Positions 8,558-64,000 of a stretch of DNA of 64,000 nucleotides are shown piece after piece. The stretch covers positions 1 to 64,000 of the forward strand of contig JAJQEO010000023.1 of assembly GCA_021201665.1 (NCBI GenBank), read 5' to 3'. Both the position numbers and the translations under genes were made by a program. The notes beneath the pieces are model-generated. The model was not told the origin of the DNA and made no database searches. It saw only the letters and a program-made list of their open reading frames with translations. Every line of letters starts with the position of its first letter. The first letter of the stretch is position 1. Source of the stretch: Lachnospiraceae bacterium (GTDB lineage: Bacteria; Bacillota; Clostridia; Lachnospirales; Lachnospiraceae).

Positions 8558-10873
8558 ATGGAACATTTAACGGGTTTTATTGACCACATTATATTCAGAA
8601 ATAAGGAGAATGGCTACACGGTTTTTGTCCTGGCTGCCCAGGAACCTGAAAGCTTTTCCTCTCAGGTGGGAGGTGCGGGAGGCAAACGGCCTCCCGCGCG
8701 TTCTGCCGCGGAAACGGACGAGATCACCTGCACGGGTACACTTCCTTATATCGGGGAAGGAGAAAAGGTGGAGCTTGTGGGGGAATACATAGCGCATCCA
8801 TCCTATGGTGACCAGTTTAAGGTCACGGAGTGTCAGGTGAAAACGCCGGATGACGCGGAGTCCGTGGAACGTTATCTTGGCTCCGGCGCGATCAAAGGAG
8901 TGGGCACGGCACTCGCCGCCCGGATTGTCCGGCGGTTTGGCGAGGATACCTTTCGGATTATTGAGGAGGAGCCGGAGCGTCTTTCCGAGATTAAGGGCAT
9001 CAGTGACCGCATGGCCCGGGAAATTGCTGCGCAGGTATACGAAAAGCGCGACATGCGCAAGGCGATGATTTACCTGCAGCAGTTTGGAATTACGACGACA
9101 CTGTCCGTGAAGATTTTCAAGCAATACGGCGCAGGAATGTACCAGGTGCTGGAGAATAACCCATACCAGCTCGCGGACGACATCGTGGGAGTCGGATTCC
9201 GGATCGCGGATGAGATCGCGAAGCGGGCAGGAGTCAGCATTGATTCAGAATACCGCATAAAATGCGGGATTTTTTACGTGCTGCAGCAGGCCATGGGGGA
9301 GGGACACATTTTTCTCCCGAAGGAGAAACTCATGGAGCGGGCGCAAGAGCTGCTCGGCGTGGAGATGGAGAGCATCGACCAGTATCTGACGGATCTGGCG
9401 ATTGACAAGAAAATTGTGGTACGCCAGGAACAGGAGCAGACGCGGGTCTATATGGCATCCTGCTACTATATGGAGATGAGCTCGGCCAGAATGCTGTGCG
9501 ACATCAATATTTCGTGCGAGGTGGACCGCGAAGTGATCCTTCGCAAAATCGGCGAGATCGAAAAAAAGACGGGAACGGTGCTGGACGATCTGCAGAAGCA
9601 GGCGGTTATCGAGGCCGCGCGCTGCGGACTGCTGGTGATCACAGGTGGCCCGGGTACCGGCAAGACGACGACGATCAACACGCTGATTACCTACTTTGAA
9701 TCAGAGGGGCTGCGGATTCTGCTGGCTGCGCCGACCGGGCGCGCGGCCAAACGGATGACAGAGGCGACCGGATGTGAGGCGAAGACGGTACACCGGCTGC
9801 TGGAGATCGGCGCGCCGACAGATGCAGGTACATTTTTTACAGGCAGCCAGAACGGAAACATCTCTTCAGAGATGTTTTCCAGAAATGAGGAAAACCCTCT
9901 GGACGCGGATGTAATTATCATTGATGAGATGTCGATGGTAGATGCGTGGCTGATGCACGCACTTTTGAAGGCGGTGACACCGGGCACCCGTCTGATTATG
10001 GTGGGCGATGTCAACCAGTTGCCCTCGGTCGGTCCGGGCAGCGTACTCAAAGACATCATTTCATCCGGGGAGATTCCGGTCGTGCGCCTGACACATATTT
10101 TCCGGCAGGCCTCTCAGAGCGATATTGTAGTAAATGCGCATAAAATCAACCGTGGGGAGCATATCCAGCTGGACAATAAGAGCAGGGATTTTTTCTTTTT
10201 GAAAAGACAGGATGCGAACGTGATTATCAGTATTGTCATTCAGCTGATCCGGGAAAAGCTTCCGCGCTATGTGAATGCGGAACCTTTTGACATCCAGGTG
10301 CTTACGCCGATGCGCAAGGGCCTTCTGGGTGTGGAACGGCTGAACCGGATTCTGCAGCAATATCTGAATCCCGCCGATCCGAACAAACGTGAGTATGATC
10401 ACAACGGCATTACCTTCCGCGAGGGAGACAAGGTGATGCAGATTAAGAATAATTACCAGCTGGAGTGGGAGATCCGCGGGCGGTATGGAGTGCCGGTGGA
10501 AAAGGGAGTCGGCGTGTTCAACGGGGACATGGGAATCATCCGTGAAATTAATCTGCATACCGAGAAGATTACAGTTGAATTTGATGAGCAACGCGTGGTA
10601 GAATACTCTTGCAATGCTCTGGAGGAGCTGGAGCATTCTTACGCGGTGACGATTCATAAATCGCAGGGCAGCGAGTATCCGGCCGTGGTGATTCCTCTGC
10701 TGACGGGTCCGCGGATGCTCATGAACCGCAATTTGCTTTACACGGCAGTGACACGTGCACGAAAATGTGTCACGCTGGTCGGAGATGCATCTACCTTTGA
10801 CCAGATGATTGATAACATCGTGGAGCAGAGGCGGTACACGGCTCTGGACGAGAGAATCAGGGAATTGTCATAG
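8558..10873 (+). CDS. recD2: RecD2-type ATP-dependent DNA helicase
   Basis: RecD2 is a 5'-3' superfamily 1B helicase, acting without RecBC in Firmicutes. I prefer the start at ATG 8558 (MEHLTGFIDHIIFRNKENGY), which matches family N-termini; the open frame extends to 8450. Helix-hairpin-helix modules lie near residue 109 (GAIKGVGTALA), Walker A GGPGTGKTTT near 363, Walker B IIIDEMSM near 454, and C-terminal motifs YAVTIHKSQGSEYP near 695 and TAVTRARK near 727. Two segments look foreign to the family: residues ~26-56 and ~422-450. Both coincide with DNA hairpins (8675-8697 and 9854-9880), suggesting in-frame palindromic insertions. Confidence 0.95.
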   Translation: MEHLTGFIDHIIFRNKENGYTVFVLAAQEPESFSSQVGGAGGKRPPARSAAETDEITCTGTLPYIGEGEKVELVGEYIAHPSYGDQFKVTECQVKTPDDAESVERYLGSGAIKGVGTALAARIVRRFGEDTFRIIEEEPERLSEIKGISDRMAREIAAQVYEKRDMRKAMIYLQQFGITTTLSVKIFKQYGAGMYQVLENNPYQLADDIVGVGFRIADEIAKRAGVSIDSEYRIKCGIFYVLQQAMGEGHIFLPKEKLMERAQELLGVEMESIDQYLTDLAIDKKIVVRQEQEQTRVYMASCYYMEMSSARMLCDINISCEVDREVILRKIGEIEKKTGTVLDDLQKQAVIEAARCGLLVITGGPGTGKTTTINTLITYFESEGLRILLAAPTGRAAKRMTEATGCEAKTVHRLLEIGAPTDAGTFFTGSQNGNISSEMFSRNEENPLDADVIIIDEMSMVDAWLMHALLKAVTPGTRLIMVGDVNQLPSVGPGSVLKDIISSGEIPVVRLTHIFRQASQSDIVVNAHKINRGEHIQLDNKSRDFFFLKRQDANVIISIVIQLIREKLPRYVNAEPFDIQVLTPMRKGLLGVERLNRILQQYLNPADPNKREYDHNGITFREGDKVMQIKNNYQLEWEIRGRYGVPVEKGVGVFNGDMGIIREINLHTEKITVEFDEQRVVEYSCNALEELEHSYAVTIHKSQGSEYPAVVIPLLTGPRMLMNRNLLYTAVTRARKCVTLVGDASTFDQMIDNIVEQRRYTALDERIRELS
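8675..8697. repeat. Palindrome inside recD2, first insertion
   Basis: A perfect 9-bp stem, GCGGGAGGC and GCCTCCCGC, with a 5-base loop lies within the codons for a Gly/Ser/Pro/Arg-rich stretch that interrupts the N-terminal OB-like region of RecD2. Confidence 0.8.
9854..9880. repeat. Palindrome inside recD2, second insertion
   Basis: GGAAACATCTCT and AGAGATGTTTTCC form a 12-bp stem with one bulge and a 2-base loop. It encodes part of an Asn/Ser/Gly-rich segment between the VHRLLEIG motif and the Walker B strand of RecD2. Confidence 0.8.
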
Positions 10874-11011
10874 AAGTGGTTATATCCGGGCCGAATTTCT
10901 TCTATTCGTGAAATCGCAAAGGGCAAAAAGGTTTTAGGCAATTATGGCTTTGGCTGCCGGGTACCTGAGACTGTCACGAAATACTCTGATATCGAGGTAA
11001 ATTTTATAATA

Positions 11012-11032
11012 AACGACGTAAGTCGTTTTACC
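11012..11032. repeat. Short palindrome, copy 1 of an inverted pair
   Basis: TAAACGACGTAAGTCGTTTTA before comF is the exact reverse complement of the sequence at 19662-19682 before pyrD. Both sit just upstream of a gene. Confidence 0.8.
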
Positions 11033-11065
11033 GTCACAGAATCTGGGGAAACTGTACGGATATAT

Positions 11066-11875
11066 ATGTATAAGAAGAAAAATTTAATACGGAGCACGCA
11101 GAAAATTTGCGAGACGGCTGCAAAATGGCTGTATCCGCCCCGCTGTCCTTGCTGCGACAAGATACGCCCCATAGGGGTTTCGGATCTGGAGTGTGTCTGT
11201 GAGGACTGCGGCGGGAGGCTTCCCTGGGTGAGGGAGCCTGCGTGCATGCTCTGCGGCAAGCCTCTGGACAGTCACCGGGCGGAAGTGTGCAGGGACTGCG
11301 GGAGGACGAGGCATTTATTTGACTGCGGGCGGGCTGCCTTTACCTATTCCGGGAAAATCAGGCACAGCGTTTACCGGATGAAATTCCAGAACCGGCGGGA
11401 CTATCTGGATTTTTTTGCTGCCGCGATGTGTCTGGCTTTGGAGCCTTATCTGTGTGCGTGGCAGCCGGAGATTCTGGTGCCGATTCCCATGCATGCCAGA
11501 AAACGCGCCGTGAGGGGCTACAATCAGGCTGAGCTGCTGGCGGAAAGGATCAGCCGTCGTACGGGGATTCCCTGTGAGAAAAATCTGCTGCGCTGCGTAC
11601 GCTACACGGGAAACCAGAAGGAATTGGACAGAATCGGGCGGCTTAAGAATTTGAGAGGCAGCTTTGCCTTGAATGTTTCCCGGGAGGGCATGCCGCAGAC
11701 CTATGGATCCGGAGCACTGCCGGAAAGGGTTCTTCTGGTGGATGATGTTTATACGACAGGAAGTACGATGGATGAGGCCGCGCGGGCTCTGAAATCCGCC
11801 GGGGTACGGCAGGTATATTTCATTGTCCTCTGTACGGGAGATCAGACTGCGGGCGGGCCAGGGGACTCGCAATGA
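11066..11875 (+). CDS. comF: ComF family phosphoribosyltransferase-like protein
   Basis: ComF proteins support DNA uptake during competence and resemble amidophosphoribosyltransferases. The 269-residue protein has two CxxC pairs near the N-terminus (CPCC, CEDC, CMLC, CRDC) typical of the zinc-binding ComF domain, the motif PIPMHARKRAVRGYNQAE near residue 143, and the PRPP-binding loop VLLVDDVYTTGSTM near 222. It is alone here: no comFA helicase is adjacent, although recD2 lies upstream in the same direction. Whether the host is transformable cannot be told from this. Confidence 0.93.
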   Translation: MYKKKNLIRSTQKICETAAKWLYPPRCPCCDKIRPIGVSDLECVCEDCGGRLPWVREPACMLCGKPLDSHRAEVCRDCGRTRHLFDCGRAAFTYSGKIRHSVYRMKFQNRRDYLDFFAAAMCLALEPYLCAWQPEILVPIPMHARKRAVRGYNQAELLAERISRRTGIPCEKNLLRCVRYTGNQKELDRIGRLKNLRGSFALNVSREGMPQTYGSGALPERVLLVDDVYTTGSTMDEAARALKSAGVRQVYFIVLCTGDQTAGGPGDSQ

Positions 11876-12012
11876 AATGCTGAATTCTCATGAAACAGCG
11901 AGAAAACATGGTGTAAATGGTATATCAGACGTACAAAGCAAACGAGTAGAATAACGGACAAAGTAAACGAAAAAACATTGGGCAAAGACTATACACGAGA
12001 AATAAAAAAAGT

Positions 12013-12040
12013 TTGCATGACGCGAAAACTGTGCTATACT
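12013..12040 (+). promoter_or_regulatory. Promoter of the cdaA-cdaR-HPr operon
   Basis: TTGCAT (12013-12018) and TATACT (12035-12040) are separated by 16 bases, a good housekeeping sigma promoter. The leader that follows contains a possible stem TATGCGA (12050-12056) with TCGCATA about 40 bases downstream. Confidence 0.75.
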
Positions 12041-12144
12041 GTCTTTAAATATGCGATGTTGGATGGTTTTGTCCAAATATCCTGACATTTTCGCATAGAC
12101 ACGTATATTGACGCAGGTTAACTGGCGGGGAGGGGAGAACACGG

Positions 12145-13038
12145 ATGAGCAGTTTTTTGTTTTGGCTGAGTGACAGTTTTTCGTGGTTGACCATACCGAC
12201 CGTTTCGATTACGCTTACGGATATCGTTGAGATTCTGATCCTGGCTTTCCTCGTATACAACCTGTTACTGTGGATTCAAAATACCCGGGCGTGGAATCTT
12301 TTAAAGGGGATCGCGATCCTTGCGGCCTGTATCGCGATCGTTTATCTCTTTCAGATGACGACATTGATGTATCTGGTAAACCGGGTGGTGGACATCGCGA
12401 TCACGGCCGCTGTCGTCGTCTTTCATCCTGAGATCCGGCGCGCCCTGGAGCGGTTGGGGGAGAAATCGGTATTCTCCGGCCTGCTTCAGTTCGGGGATGA
12501 GAATAAAAATGGGGCTGACTGGTTCGGTGAAAAGACAATTAATGAGATCGTAAAGGCTTCTACTGAGATGAGCAAGGTGAAGACCGGAGCTCTGATCGTT
12601 GTGGAGCAGAATACCCGGCTCGAGGAGTATGAGCGTACCGGTATCATGCTGGATTCTCTGGTTACGAGCCAGCTTTTGATCAATATATTTGAACATAACA
12701 CGCCGCTCCATGACGGGGCTGTCATTATTAAGGGCAACCGTATTACAGCAGCGACATGCTATCTGCCGCTGTCTGATAATATGATGCTGAACAAGGCGCT
12801 TGGTACGAGACACCGGGCGGGGCTTGGCATCAGCGAGGAGACTGATTCCATGACGGTCATTGTCTCTGAAGAGACAGGGGCGATTTCAGTTGCCTATCAG
12901 GGGGAGCTGATGCACGGAATTTCTGCAGAGGAGTTAAGGAAATACCTGACGCAGCTGCAGAAGGAAAACGTCGCCCCTAAAAAGATCAGGCAATATTTGA
13001 AGGATTTCGTGAAAGGGTGGACCAAAAATGAAGCGTAA
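12145..13038 (+). CDS. cdaA: Diadenylate cyclase CdaA (DisA_N/DAC domain)
   Basis: CdaA makes the second messenger c-di-AMP from two ATP at the membrane. The 297-residue protein has about three hydrophobic N-terminal segments (to residue ~85) followed by the DAC domain, with the catalytic motifs DGA at 190-192 (HDGAVII) and RHR at 222-224 (GTRHRAGLG). A strong ribosome site AGGGGAG precedes the ATG. The 3' end overlaps cdaR by 11 bases, indicating translational coupling. c-di-AMP controls potassium and osmolyte transport and wall homeostasis in Firmicutes. Confidence 0.97.
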   Translation: MSSFLFWLSDSFSWLTIPTVSITLTDIVEILILAFLVYNLLLWIQNTRAWNLLKGIAILAACIAIVYLFQMTTLMYLVNRVVDIAITAAVVVFHPEIRRALERLGEKSVFSGLLQFGDENKNGADWFGEKTINEIVKASTEMSKVKTGALIVVEQNTRLEEYERTGIMLDSLVTSQLLINIFEHNTPLHDGAVIIKGNRITAATCYLPLSDNMMLNKALGTRHRAGLGISEETDSMTVIVSEETGAISVAYQGELMHGISAEELRKYLTQLQKENVAPKKIRQYLKDFVKGWTKNEA

Positions 13039-14356
13039 GATCCCATGGAAGCTTCCCTTTAAGCTTCCCAAAAATCTGCCGCTTAAGATGTTGTCGGTCG
13101 TGGTTGCGTTTCTGATCTGGCTGGTGGTGGCAAATGTCAGTAATCCGACCACCTCAAAGCTTTTCCGCGACATCAAGATTGAGATTATCAACGAAGACAG
13201 CGTGACAGAGATAGATAAGGCATTCGATATCGTTTCGGAGGATTCGGTCGTGATTAAGGTCACGGAGCGCAAACGAGTTCTGGAGAGCCTGTCAGCTTCG
13301 GATTTTACGGTAGTAGCTGACATGGAGAATCTGACAGAGATGAACACGGTGCCGCTGACGGTTACATGCAGCAATTCTGCCGTGACACTGGATGAGATTA
13401 CCGTGGTGCCATCGTCCATGAAGGTGGAGCTGGAGCAGATTGTCGAGAGTGAGTTTGTAGTGACCGTGGAGACGACAGGGACGCCGGTAAATGGCTATGA
13501 GGTCGGAACGACGGAGGTTCAGGAAGGGAAAACGGTGCAGATTGCCGGCCCGGAGAGCCTGATTGAGAAAATCGGTCAGGTGACAGCTTCGGTCTCGGTA
13601 AATGGCATCTCCACAGATCAGCGGCTGACATCAGTCCTTTCCATTTCAGATAAAAATGGCGACACGCTCAGTGAAACGCAGATGAGCAGGCTGCAGATTA
13701 AGGATTCGTCCGGGGTATTGCTTTCGGACAATTCTGTAACGGTTAATGTCGAGCTCTGGGAGGTACTTTACGAGGTACCGATTGAGATTCAGACCTATGG
13801 GACACCGGAGAGCGGCTATGAGGTAACAGGCGTCAGCACAGTACCGACCACCATCAATCTGGTCGGCACTGATGAGGCTCTGGAGGAGATTGACACAATC
13901 GTAGTAAGTGAACAGGTATCTGTCTCCGGAGCTACGGAGACCTTTACGCAGGAAGTGGATCTGTCAACGACGATCAGCGAAATGGAAAATGTCCGTCTGG
14001 CTTCCGGAGTGGATTCCTCTGTCACGGTTACCATTCAGGTGGAGAAAAACGGAGACCAGACGGTTTCCCTGGCTCTGTCTGAGCTGACGGTGCTGAACCG
14101 GCCGGATAATCTGGTACTGACCTTTTCACCTGCGGACGCGATTTCAGTGACGGTTCATGCGGAGGATGAGGAGAGCACCATCTCAGGCAGCGAGATTTTC
14201 GCGACAATAGACTTGTCCGTGTGTACGGAAGCAGGCGATTATGAGATACCGGTGGAAATTGAACTGCCGGAAGGCTATACGCTCGTGTCTGAAGTGACTA
14301 TTACGGTGAATGCGACTGAGGCAGAGCAGCAGGCAGAGGCGTCGACGGAGGATTAG
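13028..14356 (+). CDS. cdaR: CdaR, YbbR-domain regulator of diadenylate cyclase
   Basis: The 442-residue protein has a basic N-terminus, one transmembrane segment (~residues 18-36, MLSVVVAFLIWLVVANV), then extracytoplasmic YbbR repeats: the element YEVGTTEVQEGKTVQI and its relative YEVTGVSTVPTTINLV mark successive copies. CdaR proteins bind CdaA and tune c-di-AMP synthesis. The tail is Glu/Ala-rich. In many Firmicutes glmM follows; here an HPr-like gene follows instead after 5 bases. Confidence 0.93.
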   Translation: MKRKIPWKLPFKLPKNLPLKMLSVVVAFLIWLVVANVSNPTTSKLFRDIKIEIINEDSVTEIDKAFDIVSEDSVVIKVTERKRVLESLSASDFTVVADMENLTEMNTVPLTVTCSNSAVTLDEITVVPSSMKVELEQIVESEFVVTVETTGTPVNGYEVGTTEVQEGKTVQIAGPESLIEKIGQVTASVSVNGISTDQRLTSVLSISDKNGDTLSETQMSRLQIKDSSGVLLSDNSVTVNVELWEVLYEVPIEIQTYGTPESGYEVTGVSTVPTTINLVGTDEALEEIDTIVVSEQVSVSGATETFTQEVDLSTTISEMENVRLASGVDSSVTVTIQVEKNGDQTVSLALSELTVLNRPDNLVLTFSPADAISVTVHAEDEESTISGSEIFATIDLSVCTEAGDYEIPVEIELPEGYTLVSEVTITVNATEAEQQAEASTED

Positions 14357-14361
14357 TTTTG

Positions 14362-14616
14362 ATGCAGAAAAGACTGAAAATAAAGAATGAGCTGGGGCTT
14401 CATCTGCGCCCGGCCGGGGAGTTGTGCACACTGGCGATGGAGTTTGAGTCGAAGATTACGATCCATTTCAGGGATCGGGAATTCAATGCTAAAAGTCTTC
14501 TGAGTGTTTTGAGCGCCTGTGTGCAGAGCGGCGACGAGATTGTGATGGAGTTCGAGGGGCCGGATGAAGAGGAAGCCTCCGCGCGTATTTCCGCTTTTAT
14601 TGAAGGACTGCGATGA
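14362..14616 (+). CDS. HPr family phosphocarrier-like protein
   Basis: The 84-residue protein matches the HPr fold and length. His14 in GLHLRPAG corresponds to the PEP-phosphorylated histidine (usual motif GLHARPA), and Ser45 in NAKSLLSVLS corresponds to the regulatory serine phosphorylated by HPr kinase. A TTG three bases upstream is an alternative start; GGAGG lies 10 bases before the ATG. It is the third gene of the cdaA operon, with no EI or PTS gene around. The Ala-to-Leu change next to the histidine suggests a specialised HPr paralogue (Crh-like or other) rather than ptsH itself; this is inference. Confidence 0.85.
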   Translation: MQKRLKIKNELGLHLRPAGELCTLAMEFESKITIHFRDREFNAKSLLSVLSACVQSGDEIVMEFEGPDEEEASARISAFIEGLR

Positions 14617-14817
14617 AGGCTGACCGGCTGATGTTTCTCTTTCTTGACAGACTGCGATAAAAAACTGACGGGCGGATATCTGCTTTTAGAGATGGCCTTA
14701 CTTAAGGACAGTCGGGCAGATAATCGCCCACATTGATAATGGACTACGAAGGAGGCCGACGCCCGGATTTCCGCCTGTATCGGTGGATTCCATTGCCGGC
14801 TCCAGAGGGGAAGCTTT

Positions 14818-17370
14818 ATGAAGAAAAAGGAACAGTACAAGAGACTGATTATGTTTTTAGCCTCCGTGCTGATTGTGGCGGTTCAGACCGCTGTATTTGC
14901 GTATACCTGGTTTCATGAATATCACATGTCAGACGTGATCGGCAGACGCTACAGCTTTTGGGGGCATCTGGCTCTGATTGCGCTGTACGCGTTTATGGTC
15001 GTGGTAGTGTCTCAGCTTTTCTCTGCCTTTAAGGTTGGCTATCAGAGAGTGCTGGATGTACTCCTTTCCCAGATTTTTTCTGTGCTGATCGTGAACGCGG
15101 TCACCTACGTGCAGCTGGCTCTGATCGGTCGCTGGAGATTTCTGGAACATGTGGGTCCGATGCTTGGAGTATGTGCGGTTAACCTTGTTGCAGTGATCCT
15201 GTGGGTTCTTTTTATGCGCTGGATTTATGTGAAAATCTATCCGCCGCATTCTATTTTGCTGATATATGGTGAATTTAGTCCCAAATCTCTGCGGGAAAAG
15301 ATGGAGACGCGCAAGGACAAGTATAGCATTGAGGGCACCATTTCCCTCAGTCAGGGTATTGAAGCGATTGAGAGGGAAATTCTGAAGCATGAGGCGGTCA
15401 TGATCTGTGATATTCCGTCCCATGAGCGCAATCTCTTTCTGAAATTCTGTTTTGAGCATGATATACGGTGTTACTGTCAGCCAAAGATTTCCGATATAAT
15501 GATTATGAGCTGCGAGGAGATCAATATGTTCGACACGCCGCTTTTACTGTTCCGCAATCGTGGGCTGACCGTGGAACAGCAGGCCGTCAAGCGTTTTTTT
15601 GATGTGGTGATTTCGGCAGCGGCATTGGTGGTACTTCTCCCTCTGTTTTTACTGATCGCCCTGCTGATCAAAGCCTACGACGGAGGCCCTGTTTTTTACC
15701 GCCAGGAGCGCCTGACGAAGGACGGAAAGGTTTTTATGGTCTATAAATTCCGCAGTATGAGAGTGGACTCGGAAAAGCAGGGCGCCCGCCTTGCGGCAAA
15801 GGGCGACAGCCGCATTACACCAGTGGGAAATGTGCTGCGCAATATTCACTTTGACGAGCTTCCACAACTGCTCAATATCCTTGAGGGCGACATGTCTCTG
15901 GTGGGACCGAGGCCGGAACGACCGGAAATTGCCGCGGTATATGAAAAAGAAATTCCTGAGTTTTCCTACCGCCTGAAGGTGAAGGCCGGCCTGACCGGGT
16001 ACGCGCAGGTTTATGGGAAATATAACACGAAGCCTTATGACAAGCTGAAGCTGGATCTGACCTATATCGAAAACTTTTCCTTCCTGCTGGATCTGCAGCT
16101 GATCGCGACTACGGTAAAAATCCTGTTCCAGAAAGAAAACACCGAGGGCGTGGAGCAGTGGCAGACAACTGCGTCGACGAAGGCTTCCGGGAGTGTGCCT
16201 GCAAAAAAAACACAGAGTCAGGGAATGTCATATACAGTGGCTCAGGGAACGACACGTGGAGAAACGCTGGGAACACTGTATACTGAATCCTTTGGCGCGT
16301 CTTATGGTACTTCTCAAAGTATGTCATACAGTACTTCTCAAGGGACATCAAACGATGAATCTCAGGGAATTTCATATAGTACTTCCGAAAGGTATACTCA
16401 GAACAGATCTCGTTCGGCTGAGAATCTCTGCGGGAGCGGGCATTACCAGAACCTGACACAATCATCGTCGTCTGGGCATTCATCTTCGAGCCGTCCGCTC
16501 GTCTCCGTGATTATCCCCGCATATCAGTGTGCGGATACGATCTGTCAGGCGATCGATTCCGCTCTCGCCCAGGAAGAAATACCTCTGGAAATCGTGGTCA
16601 TCAGTGACGATTCCCCCGACGATCTGGAGTCCGCAATGAGCCGCTACAAGAACGTACGTCAGGTGCGCTATTGTAAAAACAAGCACAGCCTGGGCGCGGC
16701 CGCATCGCGCAACCGCGGAGTAAAGATGGCAAAGGGCAGATATGTCGCTTTTCTGGACGCGGACGACTGGTGGGAAAAGGACAAGCTGAAAAAACAGCTG
16801 AGGCTGCTGGAGCCAGATGGTGCCTTTCTGGATAGTATCGATCCTGATGGCACGGCCTCGAAAGGCTCTGCAAGGAATTATGATGCCTCGAAAGGCGCTG
16901 ATACGAATGATACCTCTATGATTGAGGACAGACCGGTTCTGTGTGCGACCGCCCGCGAACTGGTAACTCCGGAGGGGGAGCTGACCGGCCGCGTGATTCC
17001 CGTACATGAATCGATTTCCTACCGAAGGCTTTTGCTTCACAATTGTATCAATTGTTCTTCTGTGGTCATCCGGACGGATGTCGCCAGGAAATTTCCGATG
17101 ACACATGAGGACAGCCACGAAGACTATATTACCTGGCTGCGTATTCTGAAAAAATATGGAAATGCCGCGGCAGTGAACGAACCGCTGCTCAAATACCGTT
17201 TAAGCAGCTCCGGCAAGTCCGGCAGCAAGCTGCAGTCCGCGAAAAAGACATACCGCGCTTATCGGTACGCTGGGTTTGGCGCGGCCTCGTCAGCGGGTCT
17301 GTTCTGCCTTTATGCGGTGAATGGTGTGATCAAATATGCGCGGGCTTTTATGGGAGGACGAAAACAATGA
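14818..17370 (+). CDS. Fusion: polyprenyl glycosylphosphotransferase + GT2 glycosyltransferase
   Basis: An 850-residue protein. Residues 1-~130 hold four or five membrane segments and are followed by a nucleotide-binding-like region. Residues ~255-440 form a WcaJ/ExoY-type phosphoglycosyltransferase (KRFFDVVISAAAL, DELPQLLNILEGDMSLVGPR, GLTGYAQVYGKY), which loads a sugar phosphate on undecaprenyl phosphate. Residues ~447-557 are a Ser/Thr/Gln/Gly-rich repetitive linker (TSQGMSY-like units). Residues ~558-780 form a family 2 glycosyltransferase (VSVIIPAYQ, DADDWW), itself interrupted at ~667-707 by a repetitive Asp/Ser/Lys segment. Initiating and second transferase in one chain would let consecutive steps of surface glycan assembly occur together. 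The stop overlaps the pyrF start (ATGA). Confidence 0.9.
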   Translation: MKKKEQYKRLIMFLASVLIVAVQTAVFAYTWFHEYHMSDVIGRRYSFWGHLALIALYAFMVVVVSQLFSAFKVGYQRVLDVLLSQIFSVLIVNAVTYVQLALIGRWRFLEHVGPMLGVCAVNLVAVILWVLFMRWIYVKIYPPHSILLIYGEFSPKSLREKMETRKDKYSIEGTISLSQGIEAIEREILKHEAVMICDIPSHERNLFLKFCFEHDIRCYCQPKISDIMIMSCEEINMFDTPLLLFRNRGLTVEQQAVKRFFDVVISAAALVVLLPLFLLIALLIKAYDGGPVFYRQERLTKDGKVFMVYKFRSMRVDSEKQGARLAAKGDSRITPVGNVLRNIHFDELPQLLNILEGDMSLVGPRPERPEIAAVYEKEIPEFSYRLKVKAGLTGYAQVYGKYNTKPYDKLKLDLTYIENFSFLLDLQLIATTVKILFQKENTEGVEQWQTTASTKASGSVPAKKTQSQGMSYTVAQGTTRGETLGTLYTESFGASYGTSQSMSYSTSQGTSNDESQGISYSTSERYTQNRSRSAENLCGSGHYQNLTQSSSSGHSSSSRPLVSVIIPAYQCADTICQAIDSALAQEEIPLEIVVISDDSPDDLESAMSRYKNVRQVRYCKNKHSLGAAASRNRGVKMAKGRYVAFLDADDWWEKDKLKKQLRLLEPDGAFLDSIDPDGTASKGSARNYDASKGADTNDTSMIEDRPVLCATARELVTPEGELTGRVIPVHESISYRRLLLHNCINCSSVVIRTDVARKFPMTHEDSHEDYITWLRILKKYGNAAAVNEPLLKYRLSSSGKSGSKLQSAKKTYRAYRYAGFGAASSAGLFCLYAVNGVIKYARAFMGGRKQ
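16150..16490 (+). repeat. Imperfect repeats encoding the glycosyltransferase linker
   Basis: Degenerate copies of TCTCAGGGAATGTCATACAG-like units encode the Ser/Gln/Thr/Tyr-rich linker between the two catalytic domains. Codons drift towards A and T compared with the flanking domains. Confidence 0.7.
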
Positions 17371-18401
17371 TTCAGAAACTGATTGCAGGCATTAAAAAGA
17401 CGAACGCGCCGGTTGTGGTAGGACTTGATCCTATGCTCAGCTACATTCCGGAATCAATTACAAAGGCAGCCTTTGCGGAATATGGCGAGACGCTGGAGGG
17501 AGCTGCTGAAGCAATCTGGCAGTATAATAAGAAAATCATCGACGCAGTATATGATCTGATTCCGGCTGTGAAACCCCAGATTGCCATGTATGAGCAGTTC
17601 GGGATCCCGGGACTGGTCGTGTTTAAAAAGACGGTGGACTACTGTCACGCAAAGGATCTGGTGGTGATTGGCGATGTAAAACGCGGCGATATCGGTTCCA
17701 CATCTGCCGCGTACGCAACAGCACATCTGGGACATGTACAGGTGGGAAGCCAGATGCTGACTCCGTTCGGCGAGGATTTCGCAACGGTGAATCCCTATCT
17801 TGGCACGGATGGTATCAAGCCGTTTCTCGAAGTCTGCCGGGAGGAGAAAAAGGGAATTTTTGTGCTGGTAAAGACATCCAATCCTTCCAGCGGAGAATTC
17901 CAGGACAGGCTGCTCACTCAAGAGGAGCCGCTCAATCAGGACAGTCTGCTCACGGCTCCATCCGGGGCAGAAGCCGTCGGGGACAGCAATTTTTCCAGAA
18001 CAAAGGATTCCTGCAAACCGCTGTATGAAGTGGTTGGTGAAAAGGTCGCCGAATGGGCGGATTCCTGTATGGGCGACGACTACAGCTATGTCGGAGCGGT
18101 AGTGGGTGCAACCTACCCGGAGATGGGCAGAATTCTGCGCCGCATCATGCCGAAGTCCTTTATCCTGGTTCCCGGATACGGCGCTCAGGGAGGCAAAGCT
18201 AAGGATCTGGCGCCTTATTTTAATGAAGACGGTCTTGGCGCGATCGTCAATTCCTCACGCGGAATTATCGCCGCGTACAAACAGGAAAAGTATGCGTCCT
18301 TCGGTGCGGATCATTTTGCAGAAGCAAGCCGCGCCGCTGTTGTGGATATGATTGAAGACATTAATTCAGTGATTAGAGAACGTCTGAATTTACGCCTGTA
18401 G
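17367..18401 (+). CDS. pyrF: Orotidine 5'-phosphate decarboxylase, with internal insertion
   Basis: PyrF converts OMP to UMP, the last step of de novo pyrimidine synthesis. The catalytic DVKRGD (residues 103-108, Lys105) identifies the longer PyrF subfamily, with PQIAMYEQFG upstream and LVPGYGAQGG, NSSRGI near the C-terminus. The 344-residue chain exceeds the usual ~270-310 because residues ~180-216 are a low-complexity segment containing a 36-base direct repeat (CAGGACAG.CTGCTCAC at ~17900 and ~17937). The start is coupled (ATGA) to the glycosyltransferase stop, with GGGAGG upstream. Confidence 0.95.
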   Translation: MIQKLIAGIKKTNAPVVVGLDPMLSYIPESITKAAFAEYGETLEGAAEAIWQYNKKIIDAVYDLIPAVKPQIAMYEQFGIPGLVVFKKTVDYCHAKDLVVIGDVKRGDIGSTSAAYATAHLGHVQVGSQMLTPFGEDFATVNPYLGTDGIKPFLEVCREEKKGIFVLVKTSNPSSGEFQDRLLTQEEPLNQDSLLTAPSGAEAVGDSNFSRTKDSCKPLYEVVGEKVAEWADSCMGDDYSYVGAVVGATYPEMGRILRRIMPKSFILVPGYGAQGGKAKDLAPYFNEDGLGAIVNSSRGIIAAYKQEKYASFGADHFAEASRAAVVDMIEDINSVIRERLNLRL

Positions 18402-18418
18402 AGGCAGTAAATTCGATG

Positions 18419-18495
18419 TAACTGTGAAGGTACTGCCCAGTTGCGATTCGATGACGGAGCAGGAAGCTCACTGGTTTTAGATAATGGTCAGTTCG
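18419..18495 (+). repeat. Dispersed repeat (AACTGTGAAGGTACTG family) before pyrK
   Basis: TAACTGTGAAGGTACTG followed by CCCAGTTGCG and then TTTTAGATAATGGTCAGTTCG. It shares both halves with the tandem array before mreB, at a similar distance from the next start codon. Confidence 0.75.
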
Positions 18496-18516
18496 CATAA
18501 AAAACGGGAGAGTACA

Positions 18517-19506
18517 ATGGCAGAGAAAGCGATGATTCGGGCTAAGATTTTTTCACAAGAAAAGATAGCCTCTCAGATATACAGCATGTGGCTTGAGGCC
18601 GGGGCGATTGCGGAAAGGGCAATTCCAGGACAGTTTGTCTCAGTGTACAGCAACGATTCAGGCCGTCTGCTGCCTCGTCCGATCAGTATCTGCGAAACAG
18701 AACCCGCGAGAGGCGCACTGCGGCTGGTATACAGAGTTGTGGGGAAAGGCACTGCGGAATTTGCCGGATATCAGTCCGGCGATACGCTTGATATCCTGGG
18801 ACCGCTCGGCAATGGATTTCCGCTGGAACGTTGTCCGGAAGGGAAGACTGCATTTCTGATCGGCGGAGGGATCGGCTTGCCTCCGATGGTTGAGCTTTCC
18901 AAAAGGCTGCGGGGGCATGCGCTGATCGTTGCAGGATACCGCGACGAACTTTTCCTGACGGAGGAACTGGCGGAAAACGGGGAACTGTACCTTTCAGCGG
19001 AGGATGTATCCTTAGTGCGTCGGCTCTCTTCAGCACAGAATGCTTCATCAGCAAAAAATGCGTATTTAATGCGCCAGGCCTCATTGGCGGTGGATACCGC
19101 ATTGGCTCAGGGTGGTTCATTGGCAGGGGATACCGCATCGGTTCAGGGTGATTCTTTGACTCAGCAGGCTGCCCTGACGAAAAAGACTGAGGCAGTCTCT
19201 TTCTCAGGCGCGCCATGTTCGCGAATTACGCATGGAAATGTACTGGATTGCATCCGTGAAAACAATCTTCACGCGGATGTGATCTATGCCTGCGGACCGA
19301 CACCGATGCTGCGGGCGTTGAAAGCTTACGCACAGGAAAATGAAATTGAGTGCTGGCTTTCGCTGGAGCAGCGCATGGCCTGCGGGATCGGAGCCTGTCT
19401 GGGCTGCGTCTGCGAGTCAACAGCAGTGGACACCCACTCACAGGTGAGAAACAAGCGTGTCTGTAAAGAAGGTCCGGTCTTTGCCGCGGAGGATGTAATT
19501 CTCTGA
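18517..19506 (+). CDS. pyrK: Dihydroorotate dehydrogenase B, electron-transfer subunit PyrK
   Basis: PyrK carries FAD and a [2Fe-2S] cluster and passes electrons from PyrD to NAD+. The FAD motif RPISI is at ~54-58, the nucleotide-binding GGGIGLPPM at ~116, and the cluster cysteines Cys289, Cys294, Cys297 and Cys316 (CGIGACLGC). The ATG at 18517 has GGGAG 6 bases upstream; the frame is open to 18484. About 60 residues (~169-231) are a low-complexity insertion with a 12-residue tandem repeat (SLAVDTALAQGG / SLAGDTASVQGD) that most PyrK proteins (~260 residues) lack. pyrD follows after 197 bases. Confidence 0.95.
   Translation: MAEKAMIRAKIFSQEKIASQIYSMWLEAGAIAERAIPGQFVSVYSNDSGRLLPRPISICETEPARGALRLVYRVVGKGTAEFAGYQSGDTLDILGPLGNGFPLERCPEGKTAFLIGGGIGLPPMVELSKRLRGHALIVAGYRDELFLTEELAENGELYLSAEDVSLVRRLSSAQNASSAKNAYLMRQASLAVDTALAQGGSLAGDTASVQGDSLTQQAALTKKTEAVSFSGAPCSRITHGNVLDCIRENNLHADVIYACGPTPMLRALKAYAQENEIECWLSLEQRMACGIGACLGCVCESTAVDTHSQVRNKRVCKEGPVFAAEDVIL
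19080..19155 (+). repeat. 36-bp tandem repeat inside pyrK
   Basis: Two copies of a 36-base unit built on GGATACCGCAT.GG.TCAG encode the 12-residue repeat in the PyrK insertion. The unit is a multiple of three, so copy-number change would keep the frame. Confidence 0.85.
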
Positions 19507-19661
19507 CATATACCAGGATAGCTGCCGGATGACAAATGCGTGCTGAACTGCCAGATGCAGGATAATCAGAAGCGAGCAGAGAAGCTTTCCGTAATGAATA
19601 AGCTTATCATCAGCCATGCAGCGCAGAGCTTAAAAAAACTCAGCATTTTTTAAGGCGCAAA

Positions 19662-19682
19662 GTAAAACGACTTACGTCGTTT
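19662..19682. repeat. Short palindrome, copy 2 of an inverted pair
   Basis: TAAAACGACTTACGTCGTTTA, the exact reverse complement of 11012-11032, lies 21 bases before the pyrD start. The rest of 19507-19660 shows nothing recognised. Confidence 0.8.
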
Positions 19683-19703
19683 ACTATATATGGAGAATAT
19701 ACA

Positions 19704-20612: not shown

Positions 20613-20751
20613 GAATTTACTGCGAGGATAAGGATACGATGAAAGACTGCTTGCGGTTCCATAAATTCTTTTTACCGGGAATCATTTCAGGAGCTTACAA
20701 ACATTCTCCTGAGCAAAATGAAAATGAATTGTACAAGATAATCTGCTTTAC

Positions 20752-20940: not shown

Positions 20941-21811
20941 GTTTATCTTCCGATTAAAGAAGGCAGAGACAATACCACAAACCATCCGATCCGGCCAGCC
21001 AGAAAATCGATCTGTAGTTCAGCCAGAAAACCGATCTGCAATTCAGTCGAAAAATCGACCTGCAATTTCGTACGTTTCCATTTTCCGGCACAACCATAGC
21101 CTGTATCATAAATATAGATTTATCATAAAAATACTTTTTTACCTGCTGCTGGCCATTTTTCTCAACCTGTCGGCCATCGCCATCCACCGTGCGTCCCTGC
21201 AGCAGGGAATCGCAGAAGAGGTTCTGCGCTTTCATATCCTCGCAAACAGCGACAGCGAAGAAGACCAGAATGTAAAATACCAGGTACGGGACGCCGTGCT
21301 CGAGTGGATGTCGAATGAACTGCATGATAAGCCTGAGGCAGCAAATACTCAGGGACTGCAAACTAAGCTGTCATCTGTTTCGCAACAGGACATGACTGCT
21401 CTTCCAGAACAGGCAATTTTGACAGACCATGAAGCGATTCTGCAGTTTCTGTCAGAAAACCTGCCGCAGATAGAAGCTGTCGCAAATACCATTCTGAACG
21501 AGCAGGGGATGTCCTATCAGGCAATCGCAGAGATCACCTGGAGCTATTTCCCGGACCGCACCTACGGCGAATACACCTTCCCGGCCGGTTGGTACCAGAC
21601 CCTGCGCATACGCCTCGGCACGGCAAAAGGACAGAACTGGTGGTGTCTCCTCTACCCGGCACTCTGCTTCTCAGACTGCCTTCACGCCAGCTTTACAGAG
21701 GACGGCCAGACTCAGCTGCAGGAAACCCTCACCGCTGAAGAATACCAGACCCTCCTACAGAATCCGTCCCAATGGAAAATCACCTTTCGCTGGGCAGACT
21801 TCTTATTTTGA
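20939..21811 (+). CDS. spoIIR: Stage II sporulation protein R (SpoIIR)
   Basis: SpoIIR is the forespore signal that triggers SpoIIGA to process pro-sigma-E in the mother cell. Identification rests on VLRFHILANSDSEEDQ, KYQVRDAVL and the C-terminal WWCLLYPALCF, all SpoIIR hallmarks. A membrane segment lies at ~61-83 before the extracellular domain. The N-terminal ~50 residues carry three copies of an 8-residue repeat (QPENRSVV, QPENRSAI, QSKNRPAI) not expected in the family. No ATG fits, so the TTG at 20939 with GGGAGGA upstream is the likely start. The 3' end overlaps the convergent typA by 9 bases. Confidence 0.93.
   Translation: MFIFRLKKAETIPQTIRSGQPENRSVVQPENRSAIQSKNRPAISYVSIFRHNHSLYHKYRFIIKILFYLLLAIFLNLSAIAIHRASLQQGIAEEVLRFHILANSDSEEDQNVKYQVRDAVLEWMSNELHDKPEAANTQGLQTKLSSVSQQDMTALPEQAILTDHEAILQFLSENLPQIEAVANTILNEQGMSYQAIAEITWSYFPDRTYGEYTFPAGWYQTLRIRLGTAKGQNWWCLLYPALCFSDCLHASFTEDGQTQLQETLTAEEYQTLLQNPSQWKITFRWADFLF
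20980..21065 (+). repeat. 24-bp tandem repeat at the spoIIR 5' end
   Basis: Three imperfect copies of a 24-base unit around CAGCCAGAAAATCGATCTG encode an 8-residue repeat ahead of the transmembrane segment. Confidence 0.85.
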
Positions 21812-23990: not shown

Positions 23991-24041
23991 TAAACGAAAT
24001 CCCAGTGTTTACTTTATACGAAGGAAGGGAGAAGCTTTGAC

Positions 24042-30121: not shown

Positions 30122-31222
30122 ATGAATAAATTTGTATTGAGACAGTCCCTGCTCCTTTTATTAACGGCGGCTATCTGGGGCGTTGCTTTTGTTGCCCAGA
30201 GCGTTGGGATGGACTATGTCCAGCCTTTTACATTTAATGCCGTGAGAAACGTGATCGGCGGGGCGGTGCTTCTGCCGGTGATTTTCTTTTTAGACGGACA
30301 GAAGGCTCATAGAGGAAAAACAAAAACTGCATATCTGTCATCCGATCCTGCGAAACAGTCAGATACACAAACAGTCGCACAGGCTGACATGCAAACATGT
30401 AAGCAAACAGAAGCGCAAACAAGTATGCAAACGATCGCGCAAACTGATATGCAGACGAAAGCGCAAACAGGTAAGCAAACGGAAACGCAATCAGAGTCCT
30501 CTACAGAGCTGGGTGTGTCGTCAGCTTTTGCAACAAAGGACCTGCTTGCGGGCGGGTTTAGCTGCGGGGTGATTCTTTTTCTGGCCTCCAGCCTGCAGCA
30601 GTTTGGCATTCAGTACACATCGGTCGGTAAAGCTGGCTTTATCACAGCAATGTACATCGTACTGGTGCCGATCTTTGGCATATTTCTTCATAAAAAGACA
30701 GGGCTGCGCGTGTGGATTGCGGTGGCTATGGCTGTCGCGGGGCTGTATTTGCTCTGTATGACAGGCGACAGCCTGGCACTGAACCGGGGCGACGCCCTGG
30801 TTCTGCTTTGTGCGGTGGCGTTTACCTTCCACATTCTGGTCATTGATCATTTTAGCTCACGTGTGGATGGGGTGAAAATGTCCTGCATCCAGTTTTTTAC
30901 CTGCGGATTGCTCTCGGCGATCGGGATGCTCCTCTTTGAGACTCCGCAGATTTCCCAGATTCTGGCAGCCTGGATGCCGATATTGTATGCGGGCGTGATG
31001 TCCTGCGGCGTGGCATATACCCTCCAGATCGTCGGGCAGCGCGGCATGAATCCGACCGTAGCATCGCTGATTCTGAGCCTGGAGTCCGTGATTTCCCTGC
31101 TTTCCGGTTGGGTGATTCTTCATCAGAGTCTGTCCGGACGGGAATTGGCAGGATGCTTGATCATGTTTGCCGCGATCATACTGGTGCAGCTTCCGGGCGG
31201 TCAGAAGGAAGTTCACGCTTGA
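30122..31222 (+). CDS. EamA/DMT superfamily transporter with repeat insertion
   Basis: The 366-residue protein has about ten hydrophobic segments and two EamA repeats (AAIWGVAFVAQSVGMDY; GVMSCGVAYTLQIVGQRG). EamA proteins export or import small metabolites; the substrate is unknown. Residues ~64-138, in a loop after an early membrane helix, are foreign: they contain ~10 copies of a 4-residue Gln-Thr repeat (MQTIAQTDMQTKAQT). Typical family members have ~290-310 residues, so the insertion accounts for the excess. The ribosome site AAGGAG is 16 bases upstream, unusually far. Confidence 0.9.
   Translation: MNKFVLRQSLLLLLTAAIWGVAFVAQSVGMDYVQPFTFNAVRNVIGGAVLLPVIFFLDGQKAHRGKTKTAYLSSDPAKQSDTQTVAQADMQTCKQTEAQTSMQTIAQTDMQTKAQTGKQTETQSESSTELGVSSAFATKDLLAGGFSCGVILFLASSLQQFGIQYTSVGKAGFITAMYIVLVPIFGIFLHKKTGLRVWIAVAMAVAGLYLLCMTGDSLALNRGDALVLLCAVAFTFHILVIDHFSSRVDGVKMSCIQFFTCGLLSAIGMLLFETPQISQILAAWMPILYAGVMSCGVAYTLQIVGQRGMNPTVASLILSLESVISLLSGWVILHQSLSGRELAGCLIMFAAIILVQLPGGQKEVHA
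30355..30495 (+). repeat. 12-bp tandem repeat inside the EamA gene
   Basis: About ten degenerate copies of a GCGCAAACAGGT-like unit, each encoding x-x-Gln-Thr. The unit keeps the reading frame at any copy number. Confidence 0.85.
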
Positions 31223-32389: not shown

Positions 32390-34066
32390 TTACCGCTTCA
32401 TTAGATCCTCCTCATCCACGATTAGTTTGATTGCCCAGGGAGGGACATCTACATCGCGGTAATCCTCGCGCAGGAACACAAAAGCAGTGTCATAGGGCGG
32501 TTTTTTGACCGGAAATATGCCATAGCCGTCCGTGAAATAGATCAGTCCGCGCAGCTTTGTGAAGCAGCCCTTGCACATCAGCTCCTTTACTCTCGCAAAC
32601 GGAGGACGAAAGTCGGTTCCGCCGAAGCCCCGGATGGTAAAATGCTCCAGATACCGCTGCATTTCCTCGTGGTTTGTGATCAGCACGTCCTCCTGCACCC
32701 GGTCGTCACATTGCAGGATGTGGATATGGATTTTGCGGAAAAAGCTTTCTGATTCACTTAAGATGCTGTAGGTTTCCTCCAGAAAATGCAGCAGCAGGTC
32801 TCCCTGGCAGGACATGGAGGTGTCCAGCACGATCACAAAATCCTCAATTTTCTTTACTTCCTTTGTCTCCAGAGGCTCAATCAAAGGCAGGTTGCCGTAC
32901 AAGTCCATACCGTAGTGGTAGTAAATATAGTCAAATGAGTCCAGATCTACCTGCATTTCTTCCTTTAATACAGAAAATTTTCTCAGAAAATCCCGATAAT
33001 CATAGCGGTGCCAGTTTGCGGCACAGACCTGTTCTTCGAGTGCTTTTACATCATCGGAAGTATCTTTCCCGAAGGTTTCCAGCTCCGTCTGCATGCGGTC
33101 ACGGATATCGTCCCATTTTTTCTTAGCATTTGCAAGTGAAGGGTTGATATTGTCAGACTCCTGCTTTGTGTCCTGTGAATCGTCTAAAGAATCTGCCCCG
33201 GCACTTTGCGTGGAAGGGGATGGATTATGCTGATGAGGATCTTTGGGAAGCTCCCAGCGGCTGTGGTCATCCACGGTAAATTCCCGCTTCAGACGGTCAA
33301 GCTGCGCCCGGTCCGGGTGGATGGCGCAGAGAATACGGTAAACGCGCTGGGCTGTCAAAGCGGGGCGGGAGGTCTTTTCACTGGTGAGAGCCGGTCTGTC
33401 TGAACGGACATCTGTAGGCGCAGGAGACCCATTCGTATAAATACGCTGGTCGGATGAGTGCGTATCTGTATCCATCCGGGAATTAAGATCATTTAAATAC
33501 ACATCTGTCCGAACAGGACGATCTTTCGAGAACGAGCTTGTCTGAGAAGAAGCATTCTTCGAAGATATGCCTGATGAAAAAGATTTCGAAAATGAATCCG
33601 TGCTGCAAACAAGGACGGGTACATCGGTGGTACGGAGTGTACGGTAAAATTCCCTGCGCAGGGCAGACTGGGGGCAGTGCACTGCCCGGATATAGAGTCC
33701 GTCGATGACTGCCTCTGCGGCCACATCGCAGGCGAGATTCCAGTATTCGGGGTCACGGTCGCCGCGCACCCACGGATGCGCGAACAGACAATGCAGGATG
33801 CTGTGCAGATAGAGCCGGTTGATCCTTTCGCGCCCTTTGCGAAAAACAGAGACTATCTGGTCAGGCTGAAAATAGTAAGAGCTGCCGTCCGTCCCGGCGG
33901 TTCGGATCTGAGCGTCCGGGGAGAATGCAAGCAAGGAGAGCGCCACATCCAGAAACCGCATATTCAGATACAATTCATTTTGCGCACCGCGTAGAATATC
34001 GCGCGCAATGTCTTCAAAGGCAGCGGTACGCGCCTGCTCGTCATAAATGACACCCATAAAATGCAA
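32390..34066 (-). CDS. DUF2201-type protein: metallopeptidase-like and VWA domains
   Basis: The N-terminal part (HSILHCLFAH near residue 88) resembles the putative metallopeptidase domain of DUF2201, and the C-terminal part (~405-558) is a VWA-like domain with a MIDAS-type DTSMS (~409-413) and GGTDFRPPF. Such proteins normally partner a MoxR ATPase, and one is encoded 2.2 kb away on the same strand. Residues ~155-240 are a low-complexity Ser/Thr/Asp/Arg segment that looks inserted, and ~285-310 is Ser/Asp-rich. The start is TTG 34066 with GGAAG close by, or ATG 34057. The function is unknown; a metal-dependent chaperone-like role is inference. Confidence 0.82.
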   Translation of the reverse strand: MHFMGVIYDEQARTAAFEDIARDILRGAQNELYLNMRFLDVALSLLAFSPDAQIRTAGTDGSSYYFQPDQIVSVFRKGRERINRLYLHSILHCLFAHPWVRGDRDPEYWNLACDVAAEAVIDGLYIRAVHCPQSALRREFYRTLRTTDVPVLVCSTDSFSKSFSSGISSKNASSQTSSFSKDRPVRTDVYLNDLNSRMDTDTHSSDQRIYTNGSPAPTDVRSDRPALTSEKTSRPALTAQRVYRILCAIHPDRAQLDRLKREFTVDDHSRWELPKDPHQHNPSPSTQSAGADSLDDSQDTKQESDNINPSLANAKKKWDDIRDRMQTELETFGKDTSDDVKALEEQVCAANWHRYDYRDFLRKFSVLKEEMQVDLDSFDYIYYHYGMDLYGNLPLIEPLETKEVKKIEDFVIVLDTSMSCQGDLLLHFLEETYSILSESESFFRKIHIHILQCDDRVQEDVLITNHEEMQRYLEHFTIRGFGGTDFRPPFARVKELMCKGCFTKLRGLIYFTDGYGIFPVKKPPYDTAFVFLREDYRDVDVPPWAIKLIVDEEDLMKR

Positions 34067-55202: not shown

Positions 55203-55303
55203 TTGCCAGAGACTTCCGAGGCATTAGCCCGGGACTCGCTCCGCTTGCCATTCGCTTGCTGCGCAGCAGAGCTGCGGGGAATGAAACCCGAAGGAAACGA
55301 ATA

Positions 55304-56215: not shown

Positions 56216-56325
56216 AATTAGCTGAGCATTATTATTGGCCTTTAAGGCCTGGGTTTTACGCACTGCTGTACTGATATCTGGTATTAGAGAAAGAAGAGGC
56301 TATGTAAGAAAGGGTGGGAATTGCT

Positions 56326-62230: not shown

Positions 62231-62400
62231 TTTGCCCACGTCATAAGGATCTACGTTTCGCTCCGGTCGGTGCCTGCGTCCTCGATTTTCTTCGAAAATC
62301 GGGACATGAAACGCGTGCCACTGGCACTCAGCACCCTTATGACATGGACGCAGCCCGCGCTAAGCGGATAGGGGTTCGACAAGCTTCCCTATCCGATTTT
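62231..62400. repeat. Palindromic mosaic repeat between carB and yitT
   Basis: Modules in order: CTTTGCCCACGTCATAAGG, GCCTGCGTCCTCGATTTTC with GAAAATCGGGAC, CGTGCCACTGGCACTCAG, and CGGATAGGG with CCCTATCCGATTTTTT. It parallels 40.2-40.38 kb module by module. The closing hairpin with a T run could also terminate carB transcription. Confidence 0.8.
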
Positions 62401-63336: not shown

Positions 63337-64000
63337 AGATTCCGTTCCATACAACATGGCCGCCGCAGATGGTATAATGAATTTTTCCGTATAATTCCAT
63401 TCCGGTAAAGGGAGAATTTTCTGATTTAGACTGGTAGTGGCCGGCAACAAAGGTCTCCTCCGGATTGAAAATGACCAGGTCGGCAACGCTGCCCGGGCGG
63501 ATGGAGCCATAGAGCTGCTCTTTGGCGTCAGCAGCCAGCTTTGTTTCGCCTGAATCAGCTGGACGGGCCGCTTCCGCTGAAATGGAGGCAGTTTGCACCA
63601 AGACCGAATCCGGGGCTGTGCCGGGCTGCGCCAGTTCATTGATCCGATAAAGCCTGGCAGGGTTGACTGTCATTTTTTCCAGAAGCTGCATCAGGGTCAG
63701 ATGTCCGGGGCGGACAAGGTTCGTGATGCCCAGTGCCAGCGAGGTCTCGAGGCCTATGATGCCGCTCGGAGCCGAAAAGAAGTCTTCACGGCTTTTCTCT
63801 GCTGTGGCATGCGGCGCGTGGTCAGTCGCGATGATGTCAATGGCGCCGTCCTTTAACCCGGCGATGATGGCCATGCGGTCTTTTTCTGTTCGCAGAGGCG
63901 GGTTCATTTTCGCGCAGGTTCCGTAGGCTTCCACGGCTTTTTCCGTCAGTGAAAAGTGATGGGGAGTTGCCTCGGCAAAGACCGGAGCCCCCAGTTTTTT
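63293..64000 (-). CDS. pyrC: Dihydroorotase, 5' part outside the window
   Basis: PyrC cyclises carbamoyl aspartate to dihydroorotate. The frame enters from beyond base 64000; 235 C-terminal residues are visible. VFAEATPHHFSL supplies a zinc-ligand histidine region, KMNPPLR the substrate loop and IDIIATDHAPHA the catalytic Asp with its following His. SIRPGSVADLVIF is the usual amidohydrolase C-terminal segment. Between RINELAQPGTAP and that segment are ~35 extra low-complexity residues (QTASISAEAARPADSGETKL), another apparent insertion. With carB close by it belongs to the pyrimidine pathway. Confidence 0.93.
   Translation of the reverse strand, partial: KKLGAPVFAEATPHHFSLTEKAVEAYGTCAKMNPPLRTEKDRMAIIAGLKDGAIDIIATDHAPHATAEKSREDFFSAPSGIIGLETSLALGITNLVRPGHLTLMQLLEKMTVNPARLYRINELAQPGTAPDSVLVQTASISAEAARPADSGETKLAADAKEQLYGSIRPGSVADLVIFNPEETFVAGHYQSKSENSPFTGMELYGKIHYTICGGHVVWNGISTVPHPAAAGSLPQ

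Follow-up and report, generated by a model that had tools for sequence, protein, structure and literature searches.

Lineage-specific inserts in conserved enzymes of one Lachnospiraceae clade

Bacterial intragenic minisatellites are usually described in surface proteins, and low-complexity inserts are known in enzymes of Plasmodium. Two published accounts frame the comparison: that of the Rickettsia palindromic elements, repeated families of ~150 bp that make in-frame additions to unrelated genes (PMC10969869), and that of Plasmodium proteins, which carry lineage-specific repeat-derived segments and in which single-residue repeats are correlated with A-T content (PMC2705789). The present analysis concerns a 64,000-nucleotide stretch of Lachnospiraceae DNA (the window, bases 1-64000 of contig C25), in which PyrF, PyrK, RecD2 and other proteins carry extra low-complexity segments, here called inserts. 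With a probability of about 70%, they represent tolerant loops that have expanded and are translated, a hallmark of one clade within a Lachnospiraceae genus; the loops would have grown as selection sifted short tandem duplications, most strongly in the window lineage. Among the top-ranked results in the open-licence literature, none described a comparable set from Lachnospiraceae.

The source genome (G000; 4.7 Mb, 121 contigs, completeness 97.7, contamination 6.15%) comes from a group of uncultured gut bacteria, and its genus includes Parablautia sp. Marseille-Q6255. An earlier note on this DNA had named segments in RecD2, a glycosyltransferase fusion, PyrF, PyrK, PyrC, an EamA transporter, a VWA protein and SpoIIR; all are present in those genes (Table 1), and the observation extends past the window.

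Inserts in core enzymes of clade S

Clade S was sampled as 16 species, namely the window's own and 15 metagenome-assembled genomes near it in PyrD, with G021 assigned by PyrF and PyrK. The clade is monophyletic with support 1.0 (15 S tips among 61 in a four-gene FastTree tree, G021 left out). Relatives of the window proteins were taken from 80 named loci around pyrD and from stretches of other genomes of the genus. PyrF shows a net gain of at least 5 amino acids (aa) in 15 of the 16 S species versus none of 46 others; the S range is 9 to 31 aa, and G013 gains less. PyrK carries an insert of 8 to 70 aa at one site in all 16 S species. Inserts of 5-30 aa also occur in 12 of 67 non-S PyrK sequences, most of them between 5 and 13 aa long. 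That of x121 has 21 aa, and the largest, 30 aa in G024, lies at a different loop from the S site. The first RecD2 loop is long in 8/8 fully visible S rows of the alignment and short in 3/3 non-S rows, while the second is longer in the window and G021 only. PyrC has about 42 aa more than 12 homologues from other Lachnospiraceae genera (roughly 38-45% identity), a comparison that lies outside the genus only. Neighbouring genes had been described as free of such segments. This holds for pyrD, which has no inserts in any of 15 S and 69 other rows (84 in all). In uvrA, only small N-terminal differences were seen, in 4 of 6 S sequences, besides one larger insert in the non-S genome G017.

Profile searches across the genus covered 40 genomes each, comprising 15 S genomes (14 with PyrD identity of at least 87% to the window, plus G021) and 25 non-S genomes (PyrD identity at most 84%). 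MetK, measurable in 12 of the 15 S genomes, has gained 40 (window), 34, 30, 30, 25, 19, 19, 12, 5, 5, 4 and 0 aa, and no gain was found in the 21 measurable genomes of the 25 non-S members. Outside the genus, about 109 near-full-length MetK matches (120 genomes from 120 genera, the window's included) show a largest gain of about 6 aa. The insert falls between residues 116 and 160, immediately before GAGDQG, at a site that we take to be near the mobile active-site loop. Additional MetK-like matches that are stop-broken or partial were seen at G010:C63, G053:C66 and G049:C31. ThiI is expanded in G000, G043, G049 and G055 only. The MutS2 match is split at profile positions 667/668 in 11 of 15 S genomes and in 0 of 25 non-S genomes (the MutS2 match being partial or absent in some), and the MutS1 matches of G001, G014 and G049 show breaks that imply an insert. 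HisS showed no gain in 14 full-length S matches. In five non-S genomes (G007, G018, G020, G024 and G046) the match is to a more distant HisS, which is about 15-32 residues longer than the stretch of profile that it covers. The clade S pattern of PyrF, PyrK, RecD2 and MetK bears out the proposal that inserts in many conserved enzymes are lineage specific, and the same segments at the same length were not found family-wide in PyrF, PyrK or MetK.

A wider comparison used automated protein predictions for 407 kb of the window's own genome (window included), 665 kb of the S member G014 and 820 kb of the non-S genome G017, together with 228 kb from six other S genomes and 194 kb from four other non-S genomes. 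Genes with inserts of at least 6 aa were counted among reciprocal-best pairs, and the resulting comparisons share genes and are not independent. Against G017, inserts were found in 9 own genes versus 1 G017 gene among 41 pairs (sign test p 0.02), and outside the window in 5 versus 0 of 29 (4 versus 0 of 25 at ≥60% identity). Against the other non-S genomes the count was 5 versus 0 of 20, and 0 versus 0 among the 9 pairs outside the window. Two of the five are minor, one reflecting a different uvrB start and the other a distant homologue of GlnQ. G014 exceeded the other non-S genomes by 7 to 1 of 20, and the other S genomes exceeded G017 by 5 to 1 of 16 and the other non-S genomes by 5 to 1 of 17. 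Counts within each group were 8 versus 7 of 33 for the window genome and G014 (both S) and 1 versus 2 of 31 for G017 and the other non-S genomes. The largest inserts outside the window are those of ThiI (74 aa), MtaB (86 aa, split over two pieces of the alignment) and a U32 peptidase (61 aa, likewise split in two), and a major facilitator superfamily (MFS) transporter has an insert of 44 aa relative to G014. MtaB, U32 and MFS proteins were named from sequence, and the ThiI, HisS, MetK and MutS families by profile.

Evolution and origin of the inserts

In the S proteins aligned, the inserts lie within open frames and between conserved blocks, as had been claimed (stop-broken frames would appear as truncated proteins and were given no separate count). 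Across six sister pairs, the ratio of nonsynonymous to synonymous substitution rates (dN/dS) is 0.27-0.63 in the PyrF, PyrK, RecD2 and glycosyltransferase inserts versus 0.05-0.07 in the cores, insert dN exceeds core dN by a factor of 7 to 12, and indels amount to 1.4-61 aa per 100 codons versus 0-1.1, with the larger dS values near saturation and the insert alignments uncertain. The cleanest pair (G010 and U2_6) gives a dN/dS of 0.51 for insert versus 0.06 for core. The inserts are rich in S, A, T, P, G and D (Ser/Ala/Thr/Gln-rich overall) and poor in W, Y, I and F, and order-promoting residues make up 0.169 of inserts versus 0.390 of cores, a composition suggesting that the loops are disordered and surface exposed. 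Taken together, the open frames, dN/dS and composition indicate that the inserts are translated and weakly constrained. Because their dN/dS lies below 1, selection for frame and folding alone, as first proposed, does not describe them.

The DNA of 16 inserts of 15-109 aa was examined, 11 in the window and 5 elsewhere in the genome. No second copies were detected in 407 kb of the own genome, about 9% of the total, bar one 15-bp match (blastn, E<=0.05). A perfect stem of 9 bp occurs in the first RecD2 loop, and stems in the other 15 inserts reach at most 6 bp (loops of 3-8 nt searched). The hairpin character attributed to these segments therefore stands for this single RecD2 loop and falls for the rest, and a seeding of genes with element-like or hairpin DNA is not borne out by the 407 kb scanned. 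GC content is 0.46-0.64 in the inserts and 0.50 in the genome sample. As low-complexity segments of 15-109 aa, the inserts do not fit an intein, whose splicing domain exceeds 100 aa and has conserved splice residues; no intein family was present among the Pfam matches of 8 window proteins, with no separate splice-motif search made.

Internal in-frame repeats exceed those of codon shuffles at p<=0.01 in 8 of the 16 inserts (combined p 3e-8). In agreement with the earlier observation on repeat units, the period is divisible by three in 61/65 tandem arrays of predicted genes in the window genome, 68/76 in G014 and 48/57 in G017, and in 19/46, 7/32 and 15/29, respectively, of the arrays outside genes. 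Between the window species and its sister G043, ThiI differs by a 12-aa/36-bp unit, and the 36-bp repeat is found in G043; other differences are present too, and this is a single case of copy-number difference, between species. Loop lengths show a seemingly stepwise pattern. A likely route would begin with short tandem duplications (units of roughly 12-72 bp) occurring in genes, of which those that keep the frame and land in tolerant loops would survive. Under weak constraint the copies would then diverge until the repeats became invisible, so that inserts lacking visible repeats may also have begun by tandem duplication, and later gains and losses would leave loop length differing between species.

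Among contigs of at least 15 kb, the window genome has 19.0 tandem repeats per 100 kb in coding sequences and 85 outside. It exceeds both G017, with 8.0 and 27.8 (p 0.0005 for either value by permutation of contigs), and G014, with 13.6 and 30 (p 0.05 inside, 0.0005 outside). By ungapped matching, the count is 10.1 per 100 kb versus 2.7-4.6 in four other sets. The excess peaks at periods of 35-43 bp, with 3.7 arrays per 100 kb in coding sequences and 25.6 outside. The corresponding densities are 0.7-1.2 and 1.2-1.9 in G017 and G014, 0.97 and 5.8 in 67 non-S loci, and 0.88 and 0 in 13 S loci; the small non-S set gives 0 and 4.9, the latter from a single array. By eye, 5 of 15 such arrays outside genes are hairpin-repeat arrays, 1 of 13 counted in coding sequences looks like one as well, and one other lies in a frame that contains masked bases. 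The window lineage thus seems to have an extra factor on top of clade-wide tolerance or supply. This factor is tentatively proposed to be a heritable tandem-duplication mutator, typically producing a 35-43 bp head-to-tail copy in genic and intergenic DNA, in a lineage with MutS, MutL and SbcD present and no Ku; growth of core-enzyme loops would be its filtered footprint.

Loss of mismatch repair was rejected as the cause, since MutS and MutL each exceed the cut-off in 35/40 genomes of the genus and the window genome has both. SbcD does so in 36/40, the window's included. Ku had no match in 40/40 (the profile matched Bacillus subtilis as a control), which makes Ku-dependent fill-in unlikely and does not separate S from the rest. 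In one S species, G008 (98% complete), neither a MutS1-level nor a MutL match was seen, reflecting either loss or an assembly gap.

Relaxed selection in the clade, under which ordinary indels accumulate with the mutation process unchanged, would fit both the lack of a general repeat excess in other S genomes and the median of 1.37 indels per 100 codons in S pairs versus 0.56 in non-S pairs. General drift is spoken against by core dN/dS, which is not raised in S (median over five conserved genes of 0.077 in 23 S pairs versus 0.114 in 42 non-S pairs, other genera included), and also by the insert-free PyrD and the S HisS matches without gain; we consider this explanation possible, if doubtful. 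Adaptive loops, maintained by selection for new contacts, regulation or condensation, could explain an insert dN/dS below 1 and a PyrK loop at one site in 16/16 S species. However, neither sequence nor length is conserved even between sisters, and the unrelated enzymes have mainly composition in common, so that an adaptive role appears improbable. A mobile or dispersed element resembling those of Rickettsia would readily place in-frame segments in many unrelated genes, and the strong hairpin of one insert and the intergenic palindromic families of the window genome point the same way. This candidate was rejected for the lack of copies in the scanned 407 kb, and the short stems of 15/16 inserts and the different sequences that sister species carry at the same site make it very unlikely as well. 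Assembly or binning artefacts might be suspected in a fragmented genome with 6.15% contamination and one duplicated stretch, but same-site inserts occur in about 15 other species whose genomes were assembled independently, and an artefact is hardly credible.

Several results weigh against clade-wide loop expansion by filtered tandem duplication. The general repeat excess is absent elsewhere in S, the 13 named S loci having 7.4 tandem repeats per 100 kb in coding sequences and 32.8 outside (9.1 and 38.7 in the 67 non-S loci), and in G014 the density is raised in coding sequences only. G014 and G017 have inserts in 11 versus 6 of 39 genes, which is not significant. Second full-length MetK copies without gain occur in the S genomes G015 and G052, and the MutS2 split is missing in 4/15 S genomes (the window's own, G008, G021 and G044). 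No repeat signal at p<=0.01 is seen in 8 of the 16 inserts, part of which were first picked for repetitiveness, calling for caution with the repeat statistic. Finally, G021 belongs to S by PyrF and PyrK only, its PyrD match being absent.

Other features of the window

Table 1. Inserts, linkers and repeat families located in the window
Feature	Position	Strand	Basis
RecD2 insert 1, OB-fold-region loop exceeding the non-S length by ~24 aa, 9-bp-stem hairpin inside	8642..8719	+	
RecD2 insert 2, about +12 aa in the helicase part, confined to the window and G021	9809..9874	+	
Glycosyltransferase fusion, Ser/Thr-rich linker joining Bac_transf and GT2 domains, with repeats	16171..16497	+	
Glycosyltransferase GT2-domain insert, two copies spaced 30 bp	16810..16929	+	
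PyrF insert, SGEFQDR to PLYE interval	17913..18014	+	alignment
PyrK insert, about 70 aa, with internal 36-bp tandem repeat	19006..19227	+	alignment, repeat search
SpoIIR N-terminal extension with three copies of a 24-bp repeat, start codon uncertain	20993..21070	+	
SpoIIR loop, variable length within clade S	21323..21421	+	
EamA transporter linker, 24-bp repeats	30317..30541	+	
VWA protein linker, genus-wide variable, longer frames in S	33344..33604	-	
PyrC insert, ~42 aa vs other genera	63494..63628	-	alignment
Palindromic repeat family one	1329-1370, 40218-40259, 51249-51279, 62272-62313		
Palindromic repeat family two	25529-25604, 40141-40178, 41784-41860		

The linkers of the glycosyltransferase fusion and the EamA transporter had been regarded as special to the lineage and are not clade-specific. 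The former varies across 15 fused S rows, and the fusion also occurs in one non-S genome, there with a shorter linker; the EamA frames vary in length similarly in S and non-S. Stop-to-stop frames of the VWA protein span 503-579 aa in 7 S versus 448-515 aa in 10 non-S genomes. SpoIIR differs within S at its N terminus and in one loop (15 rows, all S). ComF has inserts in 7/14 S and 3/13 non-S sequences, so that some loops are variable outside S too. Non-S partners of SpoIIR, typA, ssb, cobO and the HD-GYP gene were absent from the counted alignment set, which allowed no such comparison of glnQ either.

The HD-GYP-like protein at 25775-26953 (named from sequence) has 393 aa, and the frame of its G014 counterpart has 990 aa; the window copy is possibly internally deleted. 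At uvrB (1272-3518), the longest frame begins within a repeated stretch, and the true start is probably near 1383. Two sortase-like genes, identified by eye, precede the gene of a SpaA-domain surface protein that contains a Glu/Thr repeat (54339-58518). The two intergenic palindromic families have conserved flanks and varying stems, read as similar to repetitive extragenic palindromic sequences, and some copies stand in tandem arrays. Window positions 5622-25615 recur on contig C96 of the same bin (G000:C96:7-20000), ending at a 38-bp repeat array at 25529. No difference was found across 19,994 bp (first 20 kb of C96 read), and this redundancy of the bin is uninformative on strain variation.

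Comparison with known systems

The Rickettsia palindromic elements resemble the present set in making in-frame additions to unrelated genes. Unlike them, the inserts are unique in the sequence examined and appear to grow in place: a multi-copy family was not found in 407 kb of the 4.7-Mb genome, and the palindrome is confined to 1/16 inserts. With the Plasmodium segments they share a lineage-specific, repeat-derived nature, but they occur in a bacterium of ~50% GC and consist of mixed Ser/Ala/Thr/Gln units of about 12-72 bp.

Padding of enzymes as highly conserved as MetK, PyrF and ThiI in a large genome, within one clade that has insert-free sisters in the same genus, provides matched pairs in which one can ask how loops originate, how enzymes tolerate padding and whether mutation supply or selection sets length. 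The group thus offers a natural experiment on the amount of padding that enzymes can bear. Like bacterial intragenic minisatellites, the inserts have units that are multiples of three and a copy number that differs between relatives (ThiI, one case); unlike them, they reside in core enzymes of the cytoplasm, and divergence has left many copies unrecognizable. Among known systems, the set most resembles coding minisatellites, with the difference that core enzymes are its site.

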